Shown: one piece after another, positions 6,665-32,279 of the stretch
How positions within the stretch are numbered: the first letter of the stretch is position 1
Layout of the letters: each line of letters begins with the position of its first letter
Assembly: GCA_943704525.1 (NCBI GenBank)
Contig: CALSCQ010001732.1
Location: 1 to 37,119 of the forward strand
Length of the DNA: 37,119 nucleotides
Reading direction: 5' to 3'
DNA from: Pigoraptor vietnamica
Lineage: Eukaryota; Opisthokonta; Filasterea
Program-made: the position numbers and the translations under genes
The notes under the pieces: generated by a model
The model's database searches: none
Seen by the model: the letters and a program-made list of their open reading frames with translations, nothing else
Told to the model about the DNA's origin: nothing

Positions 6665-8099
6665 TCACGTCTGCGTGAAGTCGTCCGAGTAGAGATGTCC
6701 AAGCGACTGCGGCGTCAAAGCCGTCTTGTCCAGTGGCAGAATGCCCGTGAACACTGTCTGCGTCTCCATCGTCGCGTACAGCGGGTGGTATGGGGCCGTC
6801 TGGACGCCCACGGACATCGCGTCGTCAAACGCATCGTCGCCCCGCACTTGCGAGAGATAGGGCGCCGTCTGGACTGCCACGGACATCGCGTCGTCGAATG
6901 CACCGTTGCTCGTCTGCGTTTCCATCGTCGCGTAGGTCGGGTGCAAATAGAGCACCTTGACGCCCGCCCCGAAGGGGCCGCCGGCGGCGCCCGTCTGCGT
7001 CCCGTCGTCGGCATACACCGCGCGCTGGCCCTCAAGCCCCTCATCCCCGTCATCCGCAGGCGCGCTGGCGTCCAGGACATCGCTGCCCAAAGGAGAGTCG
7101 CCGCCGCATGCAAAGTCCACAGTGCGCCCGTCGACGAGGCGGGCGTCGTCGTGCGTCTGCTGCTGTGCGTCGCGCGAATGGGACCCGATCCCGGCCTCGG
7201 CCCGAAGCAGTTGCAGCGCCGTTTGCGAGTAGCTGTCCGACAGAAGGACGCCGCCCTCACCCACGCGCACGTTGCGCTGCGGTGCCGCAATGTACATCTC
7301 GTACATGGCGTCGACCGTCGTCTGCGTCTCGCGGCTCTGGTGCACGGGCGCAGCACCCACACCCGGCGCGGTCGACTTGCCGCGTCCGGACTGCGCCGCG
7401 GACGCAAGGCACAGCAGATCCATGGCCTTATCCGCGGTCGCGCTGCGAGGATTATGTTCATCATGAGCGCTTTACTGCAACCTGTAACAACGGGCAGCTT
7501 TGTACTCACGCTGTTACGCTGGTGTGGGCGCGCAGAGGAGTGTAACCGGCGCATTTCGTCCGCCGCGTGTGCGTGCGCAGACGATCTTTCGACGGGAACG
7601 ACTCCCCGCACGAGCATACCAGCGCAATGCCGCACTGGGCGACATGCCGCGCGTGGACGCTGGCGATCCCAAACGACGCGCCGCACCTCGTGCAGTGAAA
7701 CCTCTTCTCCCCGTGCACGCTCCAATAGTGCTGCTTCACGTGACCGAGGCGATTAAAAGGCGCACCGCCCCCTTCCGCGCGCTCGCACGACGGCACCGGG
7801 CAGAAAAAGGCGCGCTTCCCGTGCGTTGACGCCGCGGGCGGCAGCACGATCCCCTGATGCACGGCCTCCGTTTCGCCCGCCCAATGCGCCCTTTCGCGGC
7901 TGCCAGTCTTGTTAAGTGCCCCACGGGGGTTGAAGGTCGCTGCCGGCGCACCGTCGACGACGCGGTGGTGCCTCACGAGGTGCATGCGCAAGCACGAGGG
8001 GTTGGGCAGCACGCGATTGCAGCCGGGCACATCACACGCCACGGAACCGACAATGCGGAGGTCATCAATGGACGGCGTTGACGCCGCGGCGCTCTCCAT
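6665..8099 (-). CDS. ATMIN: ASCIZ/ATMIN-like zinc-finger protein with TQT motifs
   Basis: Two exons (8099-7510 and 7442-6665) joined across a GTGAGT...CGCAG intron give 455 residues and a TGA stop. The N-terminal half carries four zinc fingers that match ASCIZ in order and spacing: CDVPGCNRVLPNPSCLRMHL, then FFCPVPSCERA with FNRLGHVKQHYWSVHGEKR, then FHCTRCGASFG, then VCSCGESFPSKDRLRTH. The C-terminal half is low in structure and holds a ladder of dynein light chain (DYNLL/LC8)-binding style motifs: RETQTTV, DDGTQTG, METQTSN, VAVQTAP, VGVQTAP, METQTVF and a terminal DFTQT, plus SYSQTA. In animals ASCIZ is a transcription factor that drives DYNLL1 expression and is damped by DYNLL binding to its TQT sites. 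Both halves are present here, so the same feedback is plausible. An internal duplication contains YATMETQT and AFDDAMSV.VQTAPY twice. Confidence 0.88.
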
Positions 8100-8529
8100 C
8101 TCTACGGCGGCTTCATGGCGCGTCTGAGCGAGGAGTTGTGTGTGTGCGACTCAACATCTAAAACGGTTTGAAAGGTTCAAGAATGCACAGTAACATCGGG
8201 AACCCGTCGTGGTCGCATAAATTGAGCAAGTGTCGAATCTTGAACAATTTCCCCCATTTTTCAAATCAATGATAAGGATCTGTTACTACATCTCCACACT
8301 GCCATCATGATGACGTCAATGGAACTGGAGGACAGTCTGCAAGCCTTTCAGAACGATCGGCGAAATGCCTTCGTTTAAACGTTCCTTTGAGGTGTGTGGC
8401 TAAAGAGACAGCCCTCCTTCGCTCGCGTCCCGCATGCGCTCTTATTCAAATTGGGCTATTTTTCGCAAGTGCACGCCCACGTTCGCCGCGGGGACGTCGT
8501 GACGTCGTCCCTGTCGAATCGCTTCGAAA
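8100..8529. promoter_or_regulatory. Divergent promoter region with a TGACGTCA palindrome
   Basis: These 430 bases separate the divergent starts of the ASCIZ gene (-, ATG at 8099) and VTI1 (+, ATG at 8530). A perfect TGACGTCA (CRE/ATF-type bZIP site) sits at 8311-8318, and a one-mismatch TGACGTCG lies near 8500. I see no exon here. Function is inferred only from motif and position. Confidence 0.4.
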
Positions 8530-11082: not shown

Positions 11083-14072
11083 TCACATGAAGTCGTCGAG
11101 GTCGTCCACGAAGTCGTCCTCGTTGACGTCCATTGACTGGAAGTCCACGCGATACCGGAGGAGCCCTGCGCCAGAGGGCTCAAACAGATCAGAATCACCG
11201 GTGCACGTGAACTCAGCATTGAGGGCAACGCCTTTCACCGCCACCAATGACACGAACGACACGACGAACAAGAGAGCGTATTCTGACCCTCCGAACACGC
11301 ACAGGTGTGACGCACAACACGGATCCAAGAAGACACTGCTCCGAATGCCGTACGCCGCACGCACCTCCGATGCCACCAAAGCCCTTGCAGAACTGCGAGC
11401 CCTCCTGCGACTTGTCCGTCACAATCTCAAGAACGGCGCCAAACTTCTTGTAGCTGTTCGCCAGCCACTCGAGGAACGACACCTTCTCGATGAGCTCGAG
11501 CTCGGCGCCCGTCTCGTCCACAAACCGCGAGCGGTCCTTCTCCTGCTCCTTCGTGAGGTGCATTGTTTGTGTCTCTGCAATGGCGCCGCGCATTGGCACG
11601 TCAGCTACCGATTCGCAGACGGGAGGCGAGCAGTAACCAAGTTCACATAAAGTGCGCGGGTCAATCGGAGAGAAAGTCGTGCGTCACTCACCGCCGCTCG
11701 CGTTGTTCTTCATCGTGTATCGGTTCACGTCCAAGTTCTCCCACACGATGAGCGTTTCAACAGCACCCATCTCGAGACCCTACAGTTTACGCCATGCATA
11801 TTAGGACACGCACACGCGCACGCACGCACATGCACCCAGACGCACACACACACGCACGCACACACACACGCGCACACAAACCACAGGACGACAGCACGAC
11901 GAAGCAAGACGACGCACCTTCAGCGTATCCTCCACGCCAAAGCAATAGCGCCCCGTGTCTTGCGAGATCTCCTCGAAGAACTTGAGAATGAGCTTCTTCT
12001 CTTGGATGAACTTGACGTTCAGCAGGCACTCTTGCGACAACTCAATGGCCTGCGCAGCGACGTACATCAACCGCCACTCTCCTTTCGCGCTAGGACAGAC
12101 TCACGCAGTCTTCGCAAGCGTGAACAGCGTAACAATCCGCCATCGCCCCCTCGCATTCAGACACAAGAGATGCGGCGTGAAAAGGGCGCAACCACGACAA
12201 CCGCGACACGTACCTGGTTGAAGCCGCTCTCTCCTCCGTACGAAACGTCGACAATCTTGATAATCTTGGGCACGAGGCGCTGGTCGAACATGTCCGACTG
12301 GCTGAGCTCCGTCTTGAAGTCGGCCGAACCCGCAAGGATGAGGCCCGCCACGTTCGGCTGCACGCGCACGCATCACAGCAGCACGGTGAGCCACAAGGGG
12401 CGAGAAGTGCGTTCGTTTGATCCATTCGTTTTGACAGGGTCATCGTTAGGAGAGCTCGACCGCACGATGAACACAAGACAGCACGCGCACGCAGGATGCA
12501 CACCTTGTCGTTCGTGATGAAAATCTGTGTGGCCGTCTCGGCGACCTTGCGCACGTAGTTGTGACGACGCTCCATGCGGAGACGCGCAAAACGGAGAGCC
12601 GACTGACCACCACGACCTGCGGGACAAGCAGCCATGCGCGCAAGGTCAGCACGCGAATTGCAGACCGCACGGGGCTAATGGCTGATGACAACATGCACGG
12701 AAGGCGAGCACACCCATGCAGACCGCACGGGACTGCTGAGGGTCTGATAACAGTTGCGTACGCACCGTGCTTCTTCGGGAGCTCGACATTGAACTTGTGG
12801 ATAATGTCGCGCGTGTTGCCCGAGAGCGTGCCGAAGAGCGCGCCGTTGCCGTCCATCACGATGAAGCCAAACTTGCTGTCGTCCTCGAGGAGGTCGTTCA
12901 GCGCCTGCACAGACGCAGAGAGTGAGCCATCCGCAGAAACACGCCGAGAAACAGTTCGAACGATATAAGCAGGCACACGGTTTTCCACGTGAAATAGTGA
13001 AGCACTGAGGCCGGTGGGACTCCACCTCCGAATTGAGAGGGCCACAAACCAAGGACCAAGGGGACTGTCCATCTATTCAGCTGTCATCGGTCGAACCGTT
13101 CGAGGCTGACCCTTGACACCGCCCGAACAAAACCGGGCGCAAAGATACGAGAACCGCGCTCACCTCTGTGTGGAACTTGTTGTCGCAGAGGTACAGCGAC
13201 GTGTTGATCGGCTTAAACGGCTCAAAGTCGATGTTGACCATCTTATCCTTGCCGTCTTCCGTGATGATCGTGCCGCAATATATCACAAGGCCGTTCGTGG
13301 GCACTGCAGCGCGAAATTTGAATGGTCAGACACTCGGCAACGTGCGACGGGAGCTTCACGCGTACTGTGGCGGGGAACGTGCGATATTTGAACTCGCAAC
13401 ATAACAGTCGCCAAGAACAAACACCAGCCTCGAATTGCAAGTCCCAGGACCCACCCTGGTTGTAGAGCTTTAGGCGGTTCTGCACCGACACAATGGCCGC
13501 AAGCACCGATTGCCTGCACACCGGCAACACAAAACAGTCAGACCATCGCTCGCAATGCAACGATCCAGACACACAGCGGCCAATGCTGACGCGGCACTCG
13601 AGACCACACTCGCCTGTTCACTCTGTTCTTGATGTTCGACGCCGTGCCGTACTCTTCGGCAAGCATCTTTGCCACTCGCGAGATTTGATCGCGAGGCGGA
13701 ATAATGAGGGAGATCATGCTGGTACCATCGCTGCACCCCGTCCACACCACATAGTAAGCACATAGCACAATACAACACTGCAGCCCCGTCCGCACACCAT
13801 GCAGTGTGCACAAGTGGACAGCACAAGCGGCAACAAACGCCCTCAAGCCGCATCTCTACTCTCCACAATGTACAAACGCACCCGCGCGCAGCTTCAAGGA
13901 TAATGCACAAACGCACCCGCGCGCAGCTTCAAGGCTAATGCACAAACGCACCCGCGCGCAGCTTCAAGGCTAATGCACAAACGCACCCGCGCGCAGCTTC
14001 GAGGCTCTTAATGAGCTTCTTGATCTTCCACATCTCGACATTGCGGTCGGCCTGGTCTCCGGGCTCCGCCAT
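11083..14072 (-). CDS. ETF1: Peptide chain release factor eRF1 with NIKN motif
   Basis: Class I release factor that reads all stop codons in the ribosomal A site and triggers peptide release. Exons (minus strand): 14072-13987, 13730-13614, 13513-13455, 13303-13164, 12904-12766, 12616-12504, 12357-12214, 12049-11918, 11779-11692, 11574-11365, 11165-11083. They give 436 residues (human 437) and a TGA stop, colinear with the human protein. Domain 1 has TASNIKN at residues 58-64, where almost all eukaryotes have TASNIKS, while YLCDNKF is intact. Domain 2 has [14 protein letters not shown] with the catalytic GGQ. Domain 3 has [31 protein letters not shown] and an acidic tail ending DDLDDFM. Intron 2 uses a GC donor. 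Intron 1 contains tandem copies of its own 5' splice site, and intron 8 holds a CA tract. Confidence 0.97.
11805..11882. repeat. CA/CG-rich microsatellite in eRF1 intron 8
   Basis: An interrupted (AC)n tract with GC steps on the plus strand, read as (GT)n in the transcript. It lies entirely between exons 8 and 9 of the eRF1 gene. Confidence 0.85.
13514..13613 (-). other. GC-AG intron (eRF1 intron 2)
   Basis: The exon before ends GTGAACAG and the exon after begins GCAATCGG. Only a phase-2 join (AG plus G) yields the conserved RVNR followed by [17 protein letters not shown]. The intron therefore begins GCGAGT, a strong match to the AG|GC(A/G)AGT class, and ends TGTGCAG. A GT three bases downstream would be out of frame with every nearby acceptor. 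Confidence 0.85.
13876..14000 (-). repeat. 35-nt tandem array duplicating the exon 1/intron 1 donor of eRF1
   Basis: The 20-mer ACGCACCCGCGCGCAGCTTC (plus strand) starts at 13876, 13911, 13946 and 13981, exactly 35 nt apart. The last copy is the true end of exon 1 and its GTGCGT donor. The other three are near-identical copies inside intron 1, each with exon-like sequence followed by a full GTGCGT donor. Confidence 0.95.
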
Positions 14073-14660: not shown

Positions 14661-16811
14661 ATGGATAGCGTGTACTGCACTCCGCAGGACGCCCTTCGCG
14701 TGTATGACGACGACGGGGATGTGTACGATGACCCGCAGGAACTCACGGGACTGCCGGTAGGTGCTGTGTGTGACAGAGGGTATTGCGTGACAACACAGCA
14801 TTTGCTTGCTGCGAATCTGCCTTTTCGGTCGTCTTAGAATGCGTGGCCTACTTCTCACCTTGCCTCCCGCCGTTGCAGCAGCGGCACATGCGCTCCGACA
14901 GTCATGTGTACGCGTCGCTGTCTCTCATTCGTGGTGACCGCAAGCGCTCCATCTTCGACGAACCTATAGATCCAAGCCTCAGACGAGGTGTGCGATCTCT
15001 TGGCGACCATCTCTTCTTTGTCGTTGTATGTTGTGTTGATAGGCCGTGAGTTTTGTGTTTACAACACGTATTGCCCAAATATGTCAGTAATCGAGGGACA
15101 ACCCGCAGGATCTCGCACGGCCTCGTATGCATCACTGCAGGGCATCCGAGAGGGCGACGATGACGTCGACGCTCGCAGCATTTCGCACAACGTGGGTTGA
15201 TAGCCGCGCGTGATCTTTTCTGGCAGACGTCGCTAAGTTTGCGTGTGGGGATGGCATTTGCGCAGTATGCCACGCTCACTTTTGAGCGGAGCACACCCTC
15301 CGATTACGACGCGCTCCGACGACGGAAGCCGTCCGCAACAGAATATGACACACTGCGGCGGGTGAGCGAGGCGGAGGCGCCCGCACCTCCCTCGGACGCC
15401 CCTCCCGCGTTGCCCCAGTACGCCAAGCCCATTAGTGGGTCCCCTCGTCTCTTGCACGCAAACTGGCTGCTGCGCTTTTGGCGAGCTGGTCCCTCGTGCT
15501 TTGTGGGCGAGCTGGTCCCTCGTGCTTGTGGGCGAGCTGGGTCCCTCGTGCTTGCACGCAACTGACTACTGTGCTTTGCGAGCTGGGTTCCGCCTGCATT
15601 GCATGAACTGACTGCTGCGCTTGGTGCAAGTGCGCAACTTTGTTAGTTGCGGCCACGTCTAAGTTGTTTATTCTTCCTGGCGCTGCAGAGAAGCCCAAAA
15701 ACTTCGACCCTTCGATGACCACTTTCTCGTGCGTCGGTGGGTTGCGCATTTCATCACTCGTTTGCACGCGCACATGCACGCACGAACACACACACACTCT
15801 CACACACACATTTTGCAAACCCGCGGTCTTCTGCTGCTGATACCACGCGCGCTGCAGATTGCGATGCCATTTTGGAGCAGTACTATGTCAAAGATGGGGC
15901 CGTGTACTGCCCCGACGACTACCGCAAGCGGTGGGGCGCCAAGTGCGACGGGTGCGGCCAGTACATGGACGAAGGCGGATATGCCGCCGGCGGCAAACAG
16001 TTTCACGCCGACTGTCTGAAGTGCGTATGGCGCGGCCGTATCTGCCACCTGTTGCTGTCTGAGGCCGTTAGAGAGTCGTGCTAACGTCGCATTTTCGCAG
16101 ATGCGCGACATGCTCCGTCAAAATATCGCCGACAGACGGCGTGTTTGTTGGACCGCGGGGCATCGAGTGTTCCAAGTGCATTCGCGCGGGCGTTGGTGGT
16201 AAGTGACCGCGCCTTGTTTCTCGCAGGACGTTCTCGTGGCGAATGACGAGGTGGATCCATTCAATTCGTCTCACTCTGTTGGGCACCTTCCATCGCGCAC
16301 AGACTGCAAGCGGTGCGGAGGGCACCTGGAGGGCGAGATAGTCAAGTCCGCGCTCGGCTGCTTCCATGTCGCGTGCTTCACGTGCGACACGTGCAAGGTG
16401 CGTTTGCATTGTCCGCGGAATGCTCTTCGACACTTTGCTCACGTGTCGCCCACGCAGAAAGCAATCTCGGGCAACCATTTTGGCGTCGGTCCCGCGATAA
16501 TCTGCGAGGCCTGCCACACAAACGCCGCCGCAAAGTGCGCCCAATGTCGCGAGCCCATCACGGGGCGCTACACGCGCGTCGGCGAGGGGCAGTTTCATCT
16601 CCACTGTGTCAACTGCTGCATGTGCACGAAGCGGATATTCGCCGACGACGGCAGCAGCCTGGATCCATCCCTCGGCGCGTTGCTCGTCACCGATGGCAAG
16701 CCCTGCCACGCGCAGTGCATGGCGTGCCGAAAGTGCGGAAAGGTTTTTGGGGCGGGGGAGCAGATTGGCCGCACGCCGGACGGGGGCCACCTGTGCGTCG
16801 CGTGCCTGTGA
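14661..16811 (+). CDS. LIM-domain adaptor with N-terminal YxxL/YDxP motifs (paxillin/zyxin-like layout)
   Basis: Exons: 14661-14756, 14879-14987, 15109-15191, 15266-15434, 15689-15736, 15858-16020, 16101-16198, 16303-16397, 16458-16811. They give 404 residues and a TGA stop. The first about 145 residues are low in structure and rich in tyrosine motifs: VYDDP (Y22), then YASL (Y43), YASL (Y75), YATL (Y97), YDAL (Y110) and YDTL (Y123). From about residue 150 come LIM zinc fingers: a half-domain (FSCVDCDAILEQYYV) without the usual first Cys/His set; a domain from KCDGCGQYM to IECSKC; one from DCKRCGGHLEG to IICEACH; one from KCAQCREPITG to CHAQC; and a final finger CRKCGKVFGAG to LCVACL. LIM domains bind proteins, often at actin or adhesion sites. 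The layout resembles paxillin, but orthology is not shown. Confidence 0.85.
15481..15556 (+). repeat. Intronic minisatellite, three 25-26-nt units
   Basis: Units starting GCGAGCTGG at 15481, 15507 and 15532 share GCGAGCTGGTCCCTCGTGCT. They lie in the long LIM-gene intron 15435-15688. More diverged copies (GCGAGCTGGGTTCC, near 15578) follow. Confidence 0.85.
15766..15812 (+). repeat. CA microsatellite in a LIM-gene intron
   Basis: An interrupted (AC)n tract with ACTCTC lies in the intron between exons 15689-15736 and 15858-16020. Confidence 0.8.
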
Positions 16812-22604: not shown

Positions 22605-25600
22605 ATGGAGGGGTTCGTGTGTAGGCTTCTGCAAAGAAGCTACGCGGCGGGCGGCGGCATCACGCCACCGGTGAGTCTGCGGAACGTGTGCCGACAGCCG
22701 TGTCTCGCACTGTCCTGTTGCGAGAGCAATTGCCCCGCCGTTGCGTCACGCGATTTTTGCCTTGGCCTCTCGCATCTGAGACGGGGTGTTCGTGCAGGTC
22801 GTGCATCGCCACAAGGCGGCGGTGCTCGTGGCGGACCTCAGTGGCTTCACGAAGTTCACGGAAACAATAGCGCGCGACGAGCAAAATGGCACTGAGAAGC
22901 TCATGGAAATTCTCAACCGCATCTTTGCGATTGTTATCTCGTGCGTGTACGGCGAGGGCGGCGACATTCTGAAGTTTGCCGGCGACGCATTCCTCGCCGT
23001 CTTTCCCTATGACACCGACGACGGGCTCGAATGGTGCGTGGGGATATGCACCGTGTCTTTTGGTTGCACAGGGATGGCATGTGGCGCGGCGTAGTTCTGA
23101 CGGCGCATTTCCGTGCCCCAGCGAGTCAATGTCGGAGGCCATTTGCTCGGCGCTCTCCGCCGGGCTTGCGCTTCAGTCGAAGCTGGGCTCGTCGCAGGTC
23201 GGCGAAGTGCAGCTCCGATTACGTGTTGGCGTCGCCGCGGGCGAGTTCCAGGTAGGGGCTATACTGGCGCCGTCGCAGCGGCACCTGTCCTTCGTGGCCT
23301 GCGTGACGTGCGTGAGAGAAGCTGTGTCCTGACGCTCGCGATGCGTTTGTCGCAGGTACTGCATGTGGGCAACAACAGTGCGATGGAGATGGTCATGAGT
23401 GGGCCGGCTATTGAGGCGGCGAAGAAGTGCGAGGGCTCCGCCGAGTCGGGCCAGGTGCGTCTTGTTTCATTTCACGTCCTAATGCTTTGTGTTGGATTCG
23501 CGGAATCGCCCGCGTGGGTGCACGTCGTGACGTCTTCGCTGCTGCAGGTGGTTGCGGACAAGGACACGTGGGAGTGGGCATCGAGCAAGGGCGTCGTTAT
23601 TGGAAAGCAGGGCAACGTCGTGAACGGCGCATTGCGATCGTCGAACAACATGACGACGTCGCGCGGCGGCGTTCCCAATGGCCTCAGCAACAGGCGCACG
23701 AGCGCGATCCCCTCTCGGCCGCCGGGGCTCATTGCGAGCGGCTCGTGGGCGATGGCGGCGTCGAGCACGTCCGTGCACAGGAAAAGCATCGCGCAGAATT
23801 CGGACTTTAGCGGGAAGGTCACGGCGACGCAGAACGTGCTGATCAGCAGGCGGCGGTCGATCGTGGATCGCCTTGTCACGATGATCCGACCCGCGAGCAG
23901 TCGCTCGTCGCTCTCCAACGAAAAGTCCTCCGGCGCTGTGTTTAGCTACCTTGCGCCCACGCTCCCAGAGCTCGGCACTGGTCGCCGCAGTCGGTGGGTT
24001 CCCATGCAGCAAGCAGTGCTCACTCTGCACACACTGTGTTGTGGTACGGAACGCGCGCTTTGTTGGTGAATCTCACTCGTGGTTGCCCACTGTGCGCAGC
24101 GACGCAAATGCCCTGGACGACAGCGTCATGCGGCGCTATGTGCCGAAGCCGGTGCTCACGGCGCTTGATGCGAACCAGGGCGACATGTGGGTGTCGCACC
24201 TCCGCATTGTAACGGTCGTGTTCATCAAGATCGACCGAAAGCTCGACTTCACAGGTGAGGCGTCGCGAACTGCCGTTTGTCCAAATTGCTCTGTGCAGCG
24301 CTGCGTGTTGAAAGGACGAATCAGAGAGAAGGGAGCGGAATGCATACATTGTGGTGCCTGTACGCTCGCCGAGGAGAGGAGGGGGGGGGGGGGGGGGTTC
24401 CTCGGCGGCACGAGTGTGCGGGAACAGCGGGCTGATTTCTTGTTGCGCAGACGAGGAGACGCCCCGGCTGCTCCAGGGCGCGTTTGAGACGGTCTATCAG
24501 ACGACGACGGCGCTCGAGGGCCAGGTCAACAAGTTTGTCTGCTTTGACAAGGTGCGCAAACAGTGGCCTTTGTCAGCGGGTGGTGGTGGCGACCAACTGC
24601 GGCTGACTCTTCGTAAAAACAGGGCCCGACATTCCTCGTGGCGTTTGGCCTCCCGCCGCACAAGCACGAAAACGACGCGTTCCGCGGGCTCGTCGCTGCC
24701 GCCGGCATCCAGCGAGCGCTGCTCCTGCAGGGGCTTCCCTCGTCGATTGGCGTGACAACAGGTGCGTGCCAATTGTCGTGGCCGCGACAACGGTGCCCGC
24801 GCGGTGGAGTGCATTGCCTTTCTGACATGGTGGTGTGTGCGTGCTCGCAGGGCGCGTCTTTTGCGGCGTGCTCGGCAGCAGCCTCCGGCGCGAGTACACG
24901 GTGATTGGCGATTCCGTGAACCTTTCTGCCCGCCTGATGGTGGCCGGCGACGGGCACATTTTGTGCGACAAGGACACGCAGGAGGTGCGGGGACCGGCTG
25001 CTTGGCCCTCTGTTGTGGTTGCGGCGGCGGGTAGACCGTGTGATGGCATGTGTGCGTGCGTTTGCTCAAAGCGCCCCTCTTGTTTTGTTCCCGCGTGAGC
25101 AGAAGAGTCGCATGCCTGGCCTTGAGCGCAAGCCGGGCGTCCGTGTCAAGGGAAAGCGCGACGAGATTGAGGCGTACGTCATGCACAGCAACAACGAGAC
25201 GGCCATGAACGCATTCCCGGCCACCGACGACCCCAACCGCGCCAATGTGAGTGCCTCGCCGTTCTGGCCTGTGCGCATGTGCGTTGCACTCCCCACAGCC
25301 ACGGTGCTGACGTGGTTCCCGCACTGCAGCGCTCCGTGCGGCCGTCGCTCGCCGTGGCCGAGGACGACATGTCGGCGCTGAACAGCATCACGGGCCGCCG
25401 CATCTCGATGCTGTCTTCGTCTTCCGTGGAGTCGATGGTGCGCGTCGTGCGTGTGCGGCTGCCGCTCTTTGTTGCTCGCAGAGAAAACGCGCAGCGCTTG
25501 CGCAATGTCGCGTCCTTGTCCCCGCCCCTGGCAGGACCTGACTCTATTTTCCGCGCGCGCAGATGTCCCGCTTGAACCTGGAGCACATTCCCGTACGCAA

Positions 25601-28600
25601 GAGCACGGTGAGCGGCAAGCACCCGATCCTCCTCTCTGGCATCGAGTCGTCGCAGCGCGCGGCTCTACCGCAGGTGTCCTCGGTCGAGGGTGACTCGCGG
25701 AAGGGGGGCGTGCAGAGCGTGCTCGTGGGCCGCACCGAGGAGCTCCTGACCATTGAGCGCTCGCTCGAGTACTTTTTGAACGAGAAGACGGCGCCGGTGG
25801 TCGTGATCGAGGGCGGGCCGGGCGTGGGCAAGACGGCCATGGCCGTCCACCTGCGCGAGTACATGCGGCGGCTCCCGTCGCACTTTGGCGTGCACATCCT
25901 GCAGGGGCACGGCAGCAGCATGAACCGGCGCAGCAGCCACTACCTTGTGCGCGCGGTGCTCAAGAACCACTTCCGCGCCATCGGAAAGCGGTCCGTTCCC
26001 GACCAGCAGGCGTACGTGCGCGAGCTGATCAGCGGGCAGCCGCAGCTCATCGACAGCATTCCCCTGCTGAACGACGTCGTCAACCTCCAAATTCCCCCGA
26101 CGGAGGTCTCGTCGTGCCTCGCGGGCGCCGCGCGCGCGGACAAGACGCTCGGCCTCCTGCTTGCGCTGCTCGGCGCCATCGGAGAGCGCCACCCGACCAT
26201 TCTCTTTGTAGAGGATGCCCACTGGCTCGACCCGACGAGTTGGCAGCTGCTCGCGCGCGCCGTGCAGGAGCTCAAGTCGGTGATGATGGTGATTGTGTCG
26301 CGGCCGGGGCCCTGGACCAAGTCTGGCGCGCTCACAGTCGTCCGCTCGGTCGCCAGCATGGGCTCGGAGGCGCGCGTCAACGCGTCTGTAAGCGCGGGCG
26401 CGGGCGCCATGAACACTGCGAACGCGGCAAACTCGGCTGCGCTTGCGGCCGCCGTGCACGACGAGACGCGGCGAGTGAGCTCTGACGAGGACGACCCGGC
26501 CGCGCGCATGTGCGCAGGGCAGATCCTGGAGAGCGAGCGCCTCATACGGATATCGCTGGGGCCGCTGCAGCCGGCAGACACGATCATGCTGATTGCGCGG
26601 CGACTGGGCGTAGACGCCGAAGAAGTGCCCGAGGCCGTGCTCGACTTTGTCATGACGCGAGGTGGGTGCAAGAGGGAGGGGGGGGGGCTGTCGGTTGCGT
26701 GTTGTGTTGGGTGTGCGGTAGTAGTGTTGGCTGTGCGTGTTGCATGGCATGCGCGGCGCGCCGCTGGGACGTGCGAGTCGTTCTCATGTTTTGCTCACAC
26801 GGCGTGTGCATGCACACAGGCGAGGGCCACCCCCTCTTCACGGAAGAGCTGCTGCAGGCGCTGCGTGCGGCCAAAGTGATCTCCGTGGCGAACGGGCGAT
26901 GCATTCTGAACGCGGACATCAGCAGCAACTCGTCGCTGCACTCTGAGTTGCCGACGACCATCGAGGGCTTGCTGACGTCGCGCATTGACCAGCTCGACCC
27001 CGCGGCGTCGCTGGCCCTCAAGTGCGCGGCGGTGATTGGGCGCGAGTTTCATCTTTCCATGTTGCAGGCGATCATCCCCAACTACACTTCGATGGACGAG
27101 CTCCGCGGGTTCATGGCGGCGTTCGAGACGCTCGACCTCGTGCACCCGTCGTCCGAGTCACCCATGGTGTCCGGGTCGGTGCAGGCGGCGGGCGTGGGCA
27201 CGGGGGGCCCGCAGTTCACCGGCCGCAGCCACGCGAACTCGTCGAGCAGCGGCGGCGCGACGACGAACAGCCAGCGCACGACGGTGACGAACAGCTTCAA
27301 GAGCATCATTGACAGCCGCAAGGCGATCGCGTCGGTGGCCGAAGAGGGGTCGAACCTGACGCAGATTGGCGAGCTGTCGCCGCACGCCCCGGATGACGTC
27401 GTCGAAGAGGACGAGGCCAAACGGGTCAGCAAGTCGAACGTGCCCGAGGTGTACCTGTTCAAGCACGAAATGCTGCGCGAGACGGCGTACAACCTCCTCC
27501 TGCAGGCGCAGAGGAAGCTCCTGCACCGCAGCGCCGCCGTCTTCCTCGAGACGCACACGACGCAGCAGAGCCAGGCCCTCCACGCCATCGCGGCGTTTCA
27601 CTGGATCCAGGTGCGTGGCCCTTTGTTGGCGTTGCGCCGTGCGTTGTTCGCGCGCTGACCCCTACGTGTTTTGCCCTCGAAAACAGGCCGAGATGAAGCG
27701 GAACGCGCTGCCGCACCTGCTCGAGGCGTGCGAACTTGCGACGCGCAAGCACGCGTGCGTCGAGGCGATCATTTTCATCAAGGTGTGTGTGTGTGCCGAC
27801 AGATGTGATCGTCGTGGTTGTTTGTGGGATGTCCGCACGTGCGCACGTGACGTGCTCACGCCTTTTCCCGTCGGTCGTAGGACGCCGAGGCGATCATCGA
27901 GGAGGACGTCCAGCTCCGCGAGAAGCGCCCACTCAAGGCGAACCTGCGGCACAAGCTCGCCGTGCTCTCGCTCAACATGGGCCGCGTGAAGGAGTCGCTC
28001 GATTACCACGTCGAGGCCGCGCGCCTCCTCGACGGCTTTCCCAACACGCGCTTTGCGCGGCGGTCCAGCTGCGTGTTTGAGATGGCCCGCCTGTTGTTGC
28101 GGTGGCGGCCGTGGAGCGACCCGATCCTCTTCGGCAAGACGCGCGACGGGCTGCCGACGAAGGTCGACCGGTCCGGGGCGAGCACGTCGGAGACGAGCGG
28201 CTCGCTCATCCCGTTTGAACGCCACGGCACGAAGGCACGGGCGACGCGGCGGGAGCTCCGGCTTCGCCTGGACGTGTACACGACGTTTACCATGGCGGCG
28301 TACTACGCGAGTCGGAGCGACACGTTCTCGCTGTCTGTGCTGCGCTCCGTGAACATTATCCGGAAGCTGAAGGTGACGGACCCGCACTCGATTGCGGTGT
28401 ACTCTATGGCGAGCCTCATGTTCCAGCTGATGGGGTGGGACAGCCTCGCCGAGCGGTACCTGTCGGTCGCGCAGAAGGCGTCGGCGTCTATGGGCAACGG
28501 CTCGCAGGTAAGCGTGCTGAACTGCTGTGCGCGGACTGGCTCTCCCGTCGATTGTGTCGCCTGTTCCATGTTCAATGTCCCTTCGATTGCCGTTCCCACC

Positions 28601-30294: not shown

Positions 30295-31973
30295 TCATTG
30301 AGCGCCGGCGTCAATCTCCTGCGCAAAGTGCAGCGGCCCCCTGCCCGCAGGGTTCCACGCCTGCTTGATCTCGACCAGCCGCCGCAAGTTGCCGCCGTAG
30401 TACAGCTGCGTGAGGGGCAAACACCCGGTTACTCATTCAGTCGCACAACGGTGTTACTTATTTCGCACAACAGGGTTACTAGTACTCGCGCTCTCAACGA
30501 AAATGCACCGGGGCGGCCTCCCCGACATACGGACCTCCTTCCAGTGCGGCAGCGCCGGATCGATAAAGTTGACGTAGCTCCCCCGCGCGTGCGGCGCAAT
30601 GAGCGCCCACCACTCGTCGAGGAAGCGCGCGCCCGCGGCCTTCTCCGCGTCGCTCGTGTACCCGCACGACGCGTACACCATGTACTGCGTGCGCCGCCAG
30701 AAGAACGCCGTGTCGCCCTTTCCCACGTCGCCGATGGCGCCCCCAAAGTGGATGAGGTGCTGGTCGCAGGCGTCGGGCACCGCGACCGTCGCCATGGCGT
30801 CCGCAATGTCCGCCACCGACTCGACGAACGCCGTGCGCGAGACAAAGGGGTCGTCGTCGTACTCTTCGTACGCGTGGGCAACGGCAAACGCCTGGATCAT
30901 CTCCCAGAAGCAGTCGTAGCCCTTCATCGTCACGTTCGCGCCTCCTCCCGTCAGCGGGGCGATGGCGGCGAGCGTCTCGTCCCGCGGGCCAAGGTGCACC
31001 ACCCACAGGCACAGCCCGCCCCCGGGCTCCAGCACTGCGTCCACGTTCGTCGTCCCGGGCAGCGAGTCGGCGACGGCGCCGAGCTGCTGCAGCGCCGCGC
31101 GCGTGGCGTCTGCGCCGGGCGGATAGCACACTGTGCCCCACGTGTAGTCCTTGGGCCCCTCGTGCACCGCAAATTCAATGTCCAACACCACGCCAAAGTT
31201 CGACCCGCCGCCGCCCCGCAGCGCCCAGAAGAGGTCTCGGTTCGTGGCGTTGTCGGCGACGACCACCTCGGCGCCGTCGGCCGTTGCCATGGTGAAGCGA
31301 ATGACGTTGTCGATGGCCATGCCATACTGCCGCGCGCACGGGCCCACGCCGCCGCCCATAGTGAACCCCGCCACGCCGACGCTCGGGCACAGGCCGCCGG
31401 TGACGACCCACAGCCCGCCGTGCTCCTGGAGTGACCATTTTTTTGTGACAAACACGGGGTGAGTGAGGGACCGTGGCGACACAGCACACCACGGGGGGAA
31501 GGCGACAGCGCACATGCATGCCACTGACGAGGCGACGACAAGACAAGCACCTTGAAGGCGGCGTAGACGTCGCGCCAGCGGGCGCCGGCCTGAACGCGCA
31601 CGGTCGACGGGCCGGTCCACTCGACCCGCGTCATGTTCGCGAGGTTGATCATGAAGCCCGGGGCGGGCACGGACGAGTACCCGGCAAAGCTGTGCCCTCC
31701 CGCCTTCACAGAGACGGGGAGGCCGTGGGCGTCGGCGCACCGAAGCGCCCGCAGGACCTCGTCGTGCGTGCGAGGGAGCGCCACGAACGCCGGCAGATGC
31801 ACATTGTAAGCCGGGTTGGCGACGCGCGAGTAGTTGGAGAACGCGCTGTCCAGCCTCGATACCGCGAAATCGCCCAGCTCTGCGAGGCACGCCGGTGCGG
31901 CGCGCGCGCCGGCACACACACACGCGACGAGCGCGGCGAGCGCGAGCGCAACGCGCGCCATTGCAACGGCCAT
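30295..31973 (-). CDS. Secreted FAD-linked oxidase, berberine bridge enzyme-like
   Basis: Exons (minus strand): 31973-31551, 31425-30535, 30405-30295, giving 474 residues and a TGA stop. A signal peptide covers about the first 25 residues (core ALALAALVACVCAG). The FAD-binding PCMH domain has VSVKAGGHSFAGYS with H94, and GGLCPSVGVAGFTMGGGVG with C154. These are the His and Cys that attach FAD bicovalently in berberine bridge and glucooligosaccharide oxidases. ALRGGGGSNFGVV follows, and the C-terminal BBE motif is YYGGNLRRLVEIK with WNPAG. Family members oxidise sugars or alkaloids with O2, making H2O2; the substrate cannot be told from sequence. Intron 2 has a weak GTCCGT donor but its join restores the conserved BBE motif. 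A second in-frame ATG lies four codons downstream of the chosen start. Confidence 0.9.
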
Positions 31974-32279
31974 CCGGGGAACGGGCGCACTCGCGGGCCG
32001 GCGAGTCTTTGTATCGGTGCCCGTTTGATTGTGTGTGTGTGTGTTTGCGCGCGTGTGTGTGTTTGTACTTCTGGAACTGCTTTGGGCTCGAAGGGGGTTT
32101 TCCCCATGATGCAACCACTGAGCCTTTTTTTTTGTGCGAAGTCACGTGCAGGGTAACACGAATTGTGTAACAAAGCGTAACAATCACGTGATCCTCACGT
32201 CAAAACCGCCGTCGGTGAAAAAGTGAGTGGTACGGAGCCCCGCAGCACACCGTCTGTGCTCGTCGCGCACTCGCGGGCA
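31974..32279. promoter_or_regulatory. Divergent region between the FAD oxidase and TTC13
   Basis: These 306 bases between two divergent start codons hold a TG tract (32028-32063) and a T9 run near 32126. No specific element is recognised. Confidence 0.4.

Follow-up and report, generated by a model that had tools for sequence, protein, structure and literature searches.

The eRF1 gene and its surroundings

The window analyzed here, a stretch of 37,119 nt, carries on its minus strand a gene that, judged from its sequence, is a clear full-length eRF1 (Table 1). The spliced frame encodes 436 residues and ends on TGA, and all 11 exons (11/11) are open under the standard code, as the sequence-only reading of this DNA had held. 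The 10 introns range from 100 to 259 bases; nine are GT-AG, while intron 2 alone is GC-AG. This intron begins 11 bases after codon 64. A 35-base tandem repeat (13867-14006; 4.0 copies, 97% matches) lies mostly within intron 1, and its end crosses the donor of exon 1 and reaches into that exon, which gives several copies of the donor sequence.

Table 1. Positions of eRF1 features in the window.
Feature	Position	Strand	Remarks
eRF1 gene	11083..14072	-	ATG at 14072 to TGA at 11085-11083; 11 exons, 436 codons
Exon 2	13614..13730	-	Contains GTS, E55 and TASNIKN
Codons 61-64	13625..13636	-	AAC ATC AAG AAC, N-I-K-N; codon 64 at 13627-13625
Intron 2	13514..13613	-	GC-AG, GCGAGT...GTGCAG; inferred from the frame giving NRQSVL
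Exon 4	13164..13303	-	YLCDNKF (residues 125-131), same as human
Exon 6	12504..12616	-	Contains GGQ (residues 183-185)
Stop codon	11083..11085	-	TGA

Family membership was supported by both overall similarity and individual motifs. The predicted protein matched human eRF1 from end to end (phmmer, 751.9 bits), and scored 445.7 bits over residues 13-416 with TIGR03676, the aRF1/eRF1 family model, against a cut-off of 234.7. The GGQ peptide-release motif and the YxCxxxF motif (as YLCDNKF) are present; the NIK of NIKS is identical, with Ser replaced by Asn at residue 64, a site reported to be variable. A GILRY-like motif in the C domain, GGLLRY from residue 409, is predicted to bind eRF3. A search of the genome with the eRF1_1 domain family returned two matches, both of them exons of this gene, and thus revealed no second eRF1 copy. 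Since the gene is intact and no other eRF1_1 match was seen in the genome, it is not an obvious pseudogene.

Elsewhere in the window, domain matches were obtained for a C2H2_ASCIZ zinc finger (open frame 7509-8150, minus strand), a LIM domain (16203-16808, plus strand), AAA_16 (25542-26876, plus strand) and FAD_binding_4 (30457-32199, minus strand). Six of the 10 long open frames scanned were without a domain match, and the window contained no Rfam or tRNA match.

Asn64 in the stop codon-reading domain

Over the first 140 residues the alignment with human eRF1 is gap-free, which bears out the earlier assumption that the two share the same numbering; 116 of the 140 are identical, and Asn64 is among the 24 differences. 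The report of NIKN at residues 61-64 is confirmed by direct reading of the codons, the coordinates given for exon 2 are right (the exon runs on the minus strand from 13730 down to 13614), and YLCDNKF and GGQ, described as normal, are both intact in the translation. The statement that Ser is the usual residue at position 64 was likewise upheld. We compared 28 N-domain positions that we take to read the stop codon or to support its reading, a list drawn in part from the cited papers: 27 are equal to human, residue 64 being the sole exception. Unchanged elements include Asn61, Ile62, Lys63, Arg68, Glu55 and YxCxxxF. A single transition separates the codon at position 64, AAC, from AGC, which encodes serine.

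Profile scores were used as a rough guide to how unusual Asn64 is, given that priors soften differences and that one substitution each was scored at residues 61 and 63. With TIGR03676, Ser64Asn cost 1.6 bits, compared to 0.9 for Asp, 1.6 for Glu, 1.9 for Thr, 2.0 for Ala, 2.4 for Leu and 3.3 for Trp at the same position; at the neighboring residues, Asn61Ser cost 4.5 bits and Lys63Asn 3.0 bits. Ser64Asn cost 1.3 bits with PF03463, a family that we assume may also cover pelota-like N domains. By both profiles, therefore, Asn64 is a mild departure.

Archaeal aRF1 genes displayed variation at the same site. Among 77 readable genes (of 143 confirmed loci we retained 80, two of them truncated and one unreadable), the motif was NIKS in 69, NIKD in eight and NIKN in none, in a sample skewed by the query toward Thermococcus and Nitrosopumilus-type genomes, and with a pattern that demanded Ile and Lys at positions 62-63, so that variation was visible at 61 and 64 only. 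The eight NIKD loci (L081, L097, L102, L103, L104, L106, L112 and L119) are labelled as five Woesearchaeota, one Nanoarchaeia, one Thermoprotei and one further archaeon. Two scans of viral contigs yielded no eRF1 relatives, and a phage collection no eRF1 match.

The cited passages of PMC2613156 (BMC Evol Biol 2008) state that L, N or D at times replaces the S of NIKS. For N, they name SIKN paralogues from Paramecium and Tetrahymena and otherwise leave the species unstated; as these ciliate paralogues are the only ones named in those passages, NIKN with an intact NIK may be rarer than the statement suggests. The cited literature passages contained no NIKN in a named standard-code eukaryote, and the literature searches listed no paper, judged by title where any came up, that pairs NIKN with eRF1 or a release factor, or Ser64, S64 or position 64 with eRF1 and stop-codon reading.

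Stop codons at protein ends

We examined which stop codons end recognizable proteins in the genome (32.5 Mb in 1395 contigs, the window being contig C706). Thirteen ends were counted, with protein names and C-terminal signals assigned by our reading of motifs: five on TAA, three on TAG and five on TGA, including the TGA of eRF1 itself. None of the three standard stops thus appears to have been abandoned. Seven of 20 Ras-family 3' ends fetched, out of at least 90 matches, carried a prenylation-type signal; four of these end on TGA (CSLL twice, CVLL and CGSC), two on TAG (CAC and CGC) and one on TAA (CLIL). We left the remaining 13 out of the count, as they continued into introns, were ambiguous or lacked a stop; among them are YCSI (TGA), CCTIS (TAA) and CASCNT (TGA). 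Nine histone loci provided three secure ends, all on TAA (two GERA and one TSTK), leaving out two divergent H3-like loci (TGA and TAG), one H2B-like locus (TGA) and three without a stop. Two of five HSP70-family ends fetched were secure, TIEEVD with TAA and HDEL with TAG, and the other three were unusable. Judging from these sequences, genes of this organism apparently end on TAA, on TAG and on TGA.

The same genome contained 59 tRNA matches. Sixteen of them lie within about 15 kb on contig C295, a clustering that suggests a mitochondrial genome. Contigs C6, C754 and C892 have round lengths of 5000, 5000 and 50000 bases, perhaps an artefact of assembly or deposition.

In-frame stops and coding signal

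At least 246 matches to four conserved families (Ras 90, histone 13, HSP70 33 and Mito_carr 110) were inspected for in-frame stops, and 14 carried one: six Ras (five TGA and one TAG), one HSP70 (TGA), seven Mito_carr (six TGA and one TAA) and no histone. In 10 of the 14, the stop is among the five final codons of the match. As for the others, the stop of L139 lies 18 codons before the end of the match, inside the donor-like GGGTGAGTG; that of L145 is the first codon of the match, at an acceptor; that of L057 directly precedes an acceptor; and that of L142, the least certain of the 14, lies in an intron-like stretch. All 14 probably represent overrun at exon edges or introns, one less securely than the rest, and none is a clear sense codon. 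We therefore found no stop that is read as sense in these conserved proteins.

To see if coding signal extends beyond the stops, we also scanned 223 kb for coding bias (20 stretches taken from contigs C1-C18, together with the window), using 1061 training codons. At the middle threshold and 40 codons per side, signal was present on both sides of 0/9 TAA, 0/10 TAG and 2/54 TGA codons; at the loosest threshold and 60 codons, the respective values were 1/13, 1/14 and 3/64. The three TGA cases at 40 codons and the loosest threshold looked like coding-intron-coding by eye. In this small scan with its tiny training set, none of the three stops is conspicuous as being read as sense.

Interpretation of Asn64

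We consider this gene to be an ordinary eRF1 of a standard-code eukaryote that bears a tolerated Ser64Asn substitution, a reading to which we assign a probability of roughly 0.86. Because all three stops appear to end genes, Asn64 looks tolerated rather than indicative of a changed code. Weighing against this reading, NIKN was seen in none of the 77 archaeal genes and in no named standard-code eukaryote, and the widest setting of the scan left a few stops with coding signal on both sides. The sequence-only reading had raised the prospect of altered stop-codon discrimination; this is unsupported, as all three stops end recognizable proteins and we read none of the 14 stop-bearing matches out of 246 as genuine coding. 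Its appeal to the NIKD of Tetrahymena carries little weight, given NIKD in eight of 77 archaeal aRF1 genes, where we assume the standard code, and the residues that PMC2613156 lists at the site in its cited passages.

The protein would enter the A site together with eRF3 and read UAA, UAG and UGA as usual, with codon contacts presumably kept via Asn61, Ile62, Lys63, Arg68, Glu55 and YxCxxxF. Residue 64 is known to be more variable than its neighbors, and Asn is of similar size to Asp, a residue found repeatedly at this site in other lineages. Assuming an ancestral AGC, a transition to AAC was probably fixed as a near-neutral or mildly tuning change. In the simulations described in the cited parts of PMC5681627, Lys63 contacts the first uridine and Asn61 its sugar, Arg68 holds the loop, and Ile62 belongs to a hydrophobic cluster that surrounds the third base; the main text of that paper never mentions 'Ser64'. 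Since Asn61, Ile62, Lys63 and Arg68 are unchanged, we infer that the Asn64 protein keeps the loop and its codon contacts, and together with stop use in the genome this makes an omnipotent eRF1 most likely. Jmjd4 hydroxylates Lys63, according to the cited passage of PMC3991326, and the modification could in principle be affected by the neighboring residue 64.

Asn64 might instead shift the balance of stop efficiencies, for example by weakening release at UGA or at UAR, leading to context-dependent readthrough with no reassignment. We regard this as unlikely, since the ends of recognizable proteins use all three stops and the other 27 listed recognition positions are equal to human. The argument for such a shift is that residue 64 adjoins Lys63, the first-base contact in the cited part of PMC5681627, and that ciliate NIKS variants accompany restricted recognition, as in Paramecium, which has SIKD together with YFCDPQF; the Paramecium protein nevertheless bears further changes (cited passages of PMC12440015). 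If true, a retuning of efficiency by Asn64 would give termination assays a clean natural variant at a single residue. It is quite improbable, in our view, that Asn64 in an otherwise canonical N domain quantitatively retunes stop preference or eRF3 dependence in this lineage, as a natural intermediate on the ciliate path to restriction.

We see a slim chance that Ser is the usual residue and that the A at 13626 (read on the minus strand) reflects an allelic variant or an error of sequencing or assembly: the base comes from a single assembly and AAC lies one transition from AGC, but the remainder of the gene is clean, with 11 open exons and usable splice sites. A reassigned or dual-use stop codon is largely refuted, even for TGA, the candidate as the most frequent stop inside the raw family matches (12 of 14). 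All three stops terminate recognizable proteins, and of those 12 TGA codons nine lie inside donor-like GTGAG, one right after GTGAGT and one right before an acceptor, with the last (L142) falling in sequence that resembles an intron. TGA is also the stop codon of eRF1 and of four small GTPases whose ends are of the prenylation type.

Returning to an ordinary eRF1 with a tolerated Ser64Asn, the existence of a eukaryote that has NIKN and apparently ends genes with all three stops makes residue 64 a weaker marker of a changed code.

Comparison with known systems

The gene resembles human-type eRF1 in its full-length match, its motifs and its identity at 116 of the first 140 residues, and differs from it in having Asn64 rather than Ser, along with 23 other differences, none at the 27 recognition positions. 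With ciliate eRF1s it shares a substituted residue 64, found in the cited passages as NIKD and SIKN in Tetrahymena and as SIKD, SIQD and SIKN in Paramecium. In contrast to the ciliate NIKS variants, Asn61 and YLCDNKF are unchanged here, and proteins still end on TAA and on TAG. Amoebophrya species with the canonical code carry RIKS, as described in the cited passages of PMC12005148, and thus likewise combine a NIKS variant with a canonical code, although residue 61 is changed there and residue 64 here. Archaeal aRF1 with NIKD (8/77) also lacks Ser at residue 64 with NIK intact; the residue is Asp there and Asn here, and the archaeal factor works without eRF3, which is missing from archaea according to the cited part of PMC2613156. 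Set beside these systems, the Asn64 case is a fresh example of an already known kind of variation.
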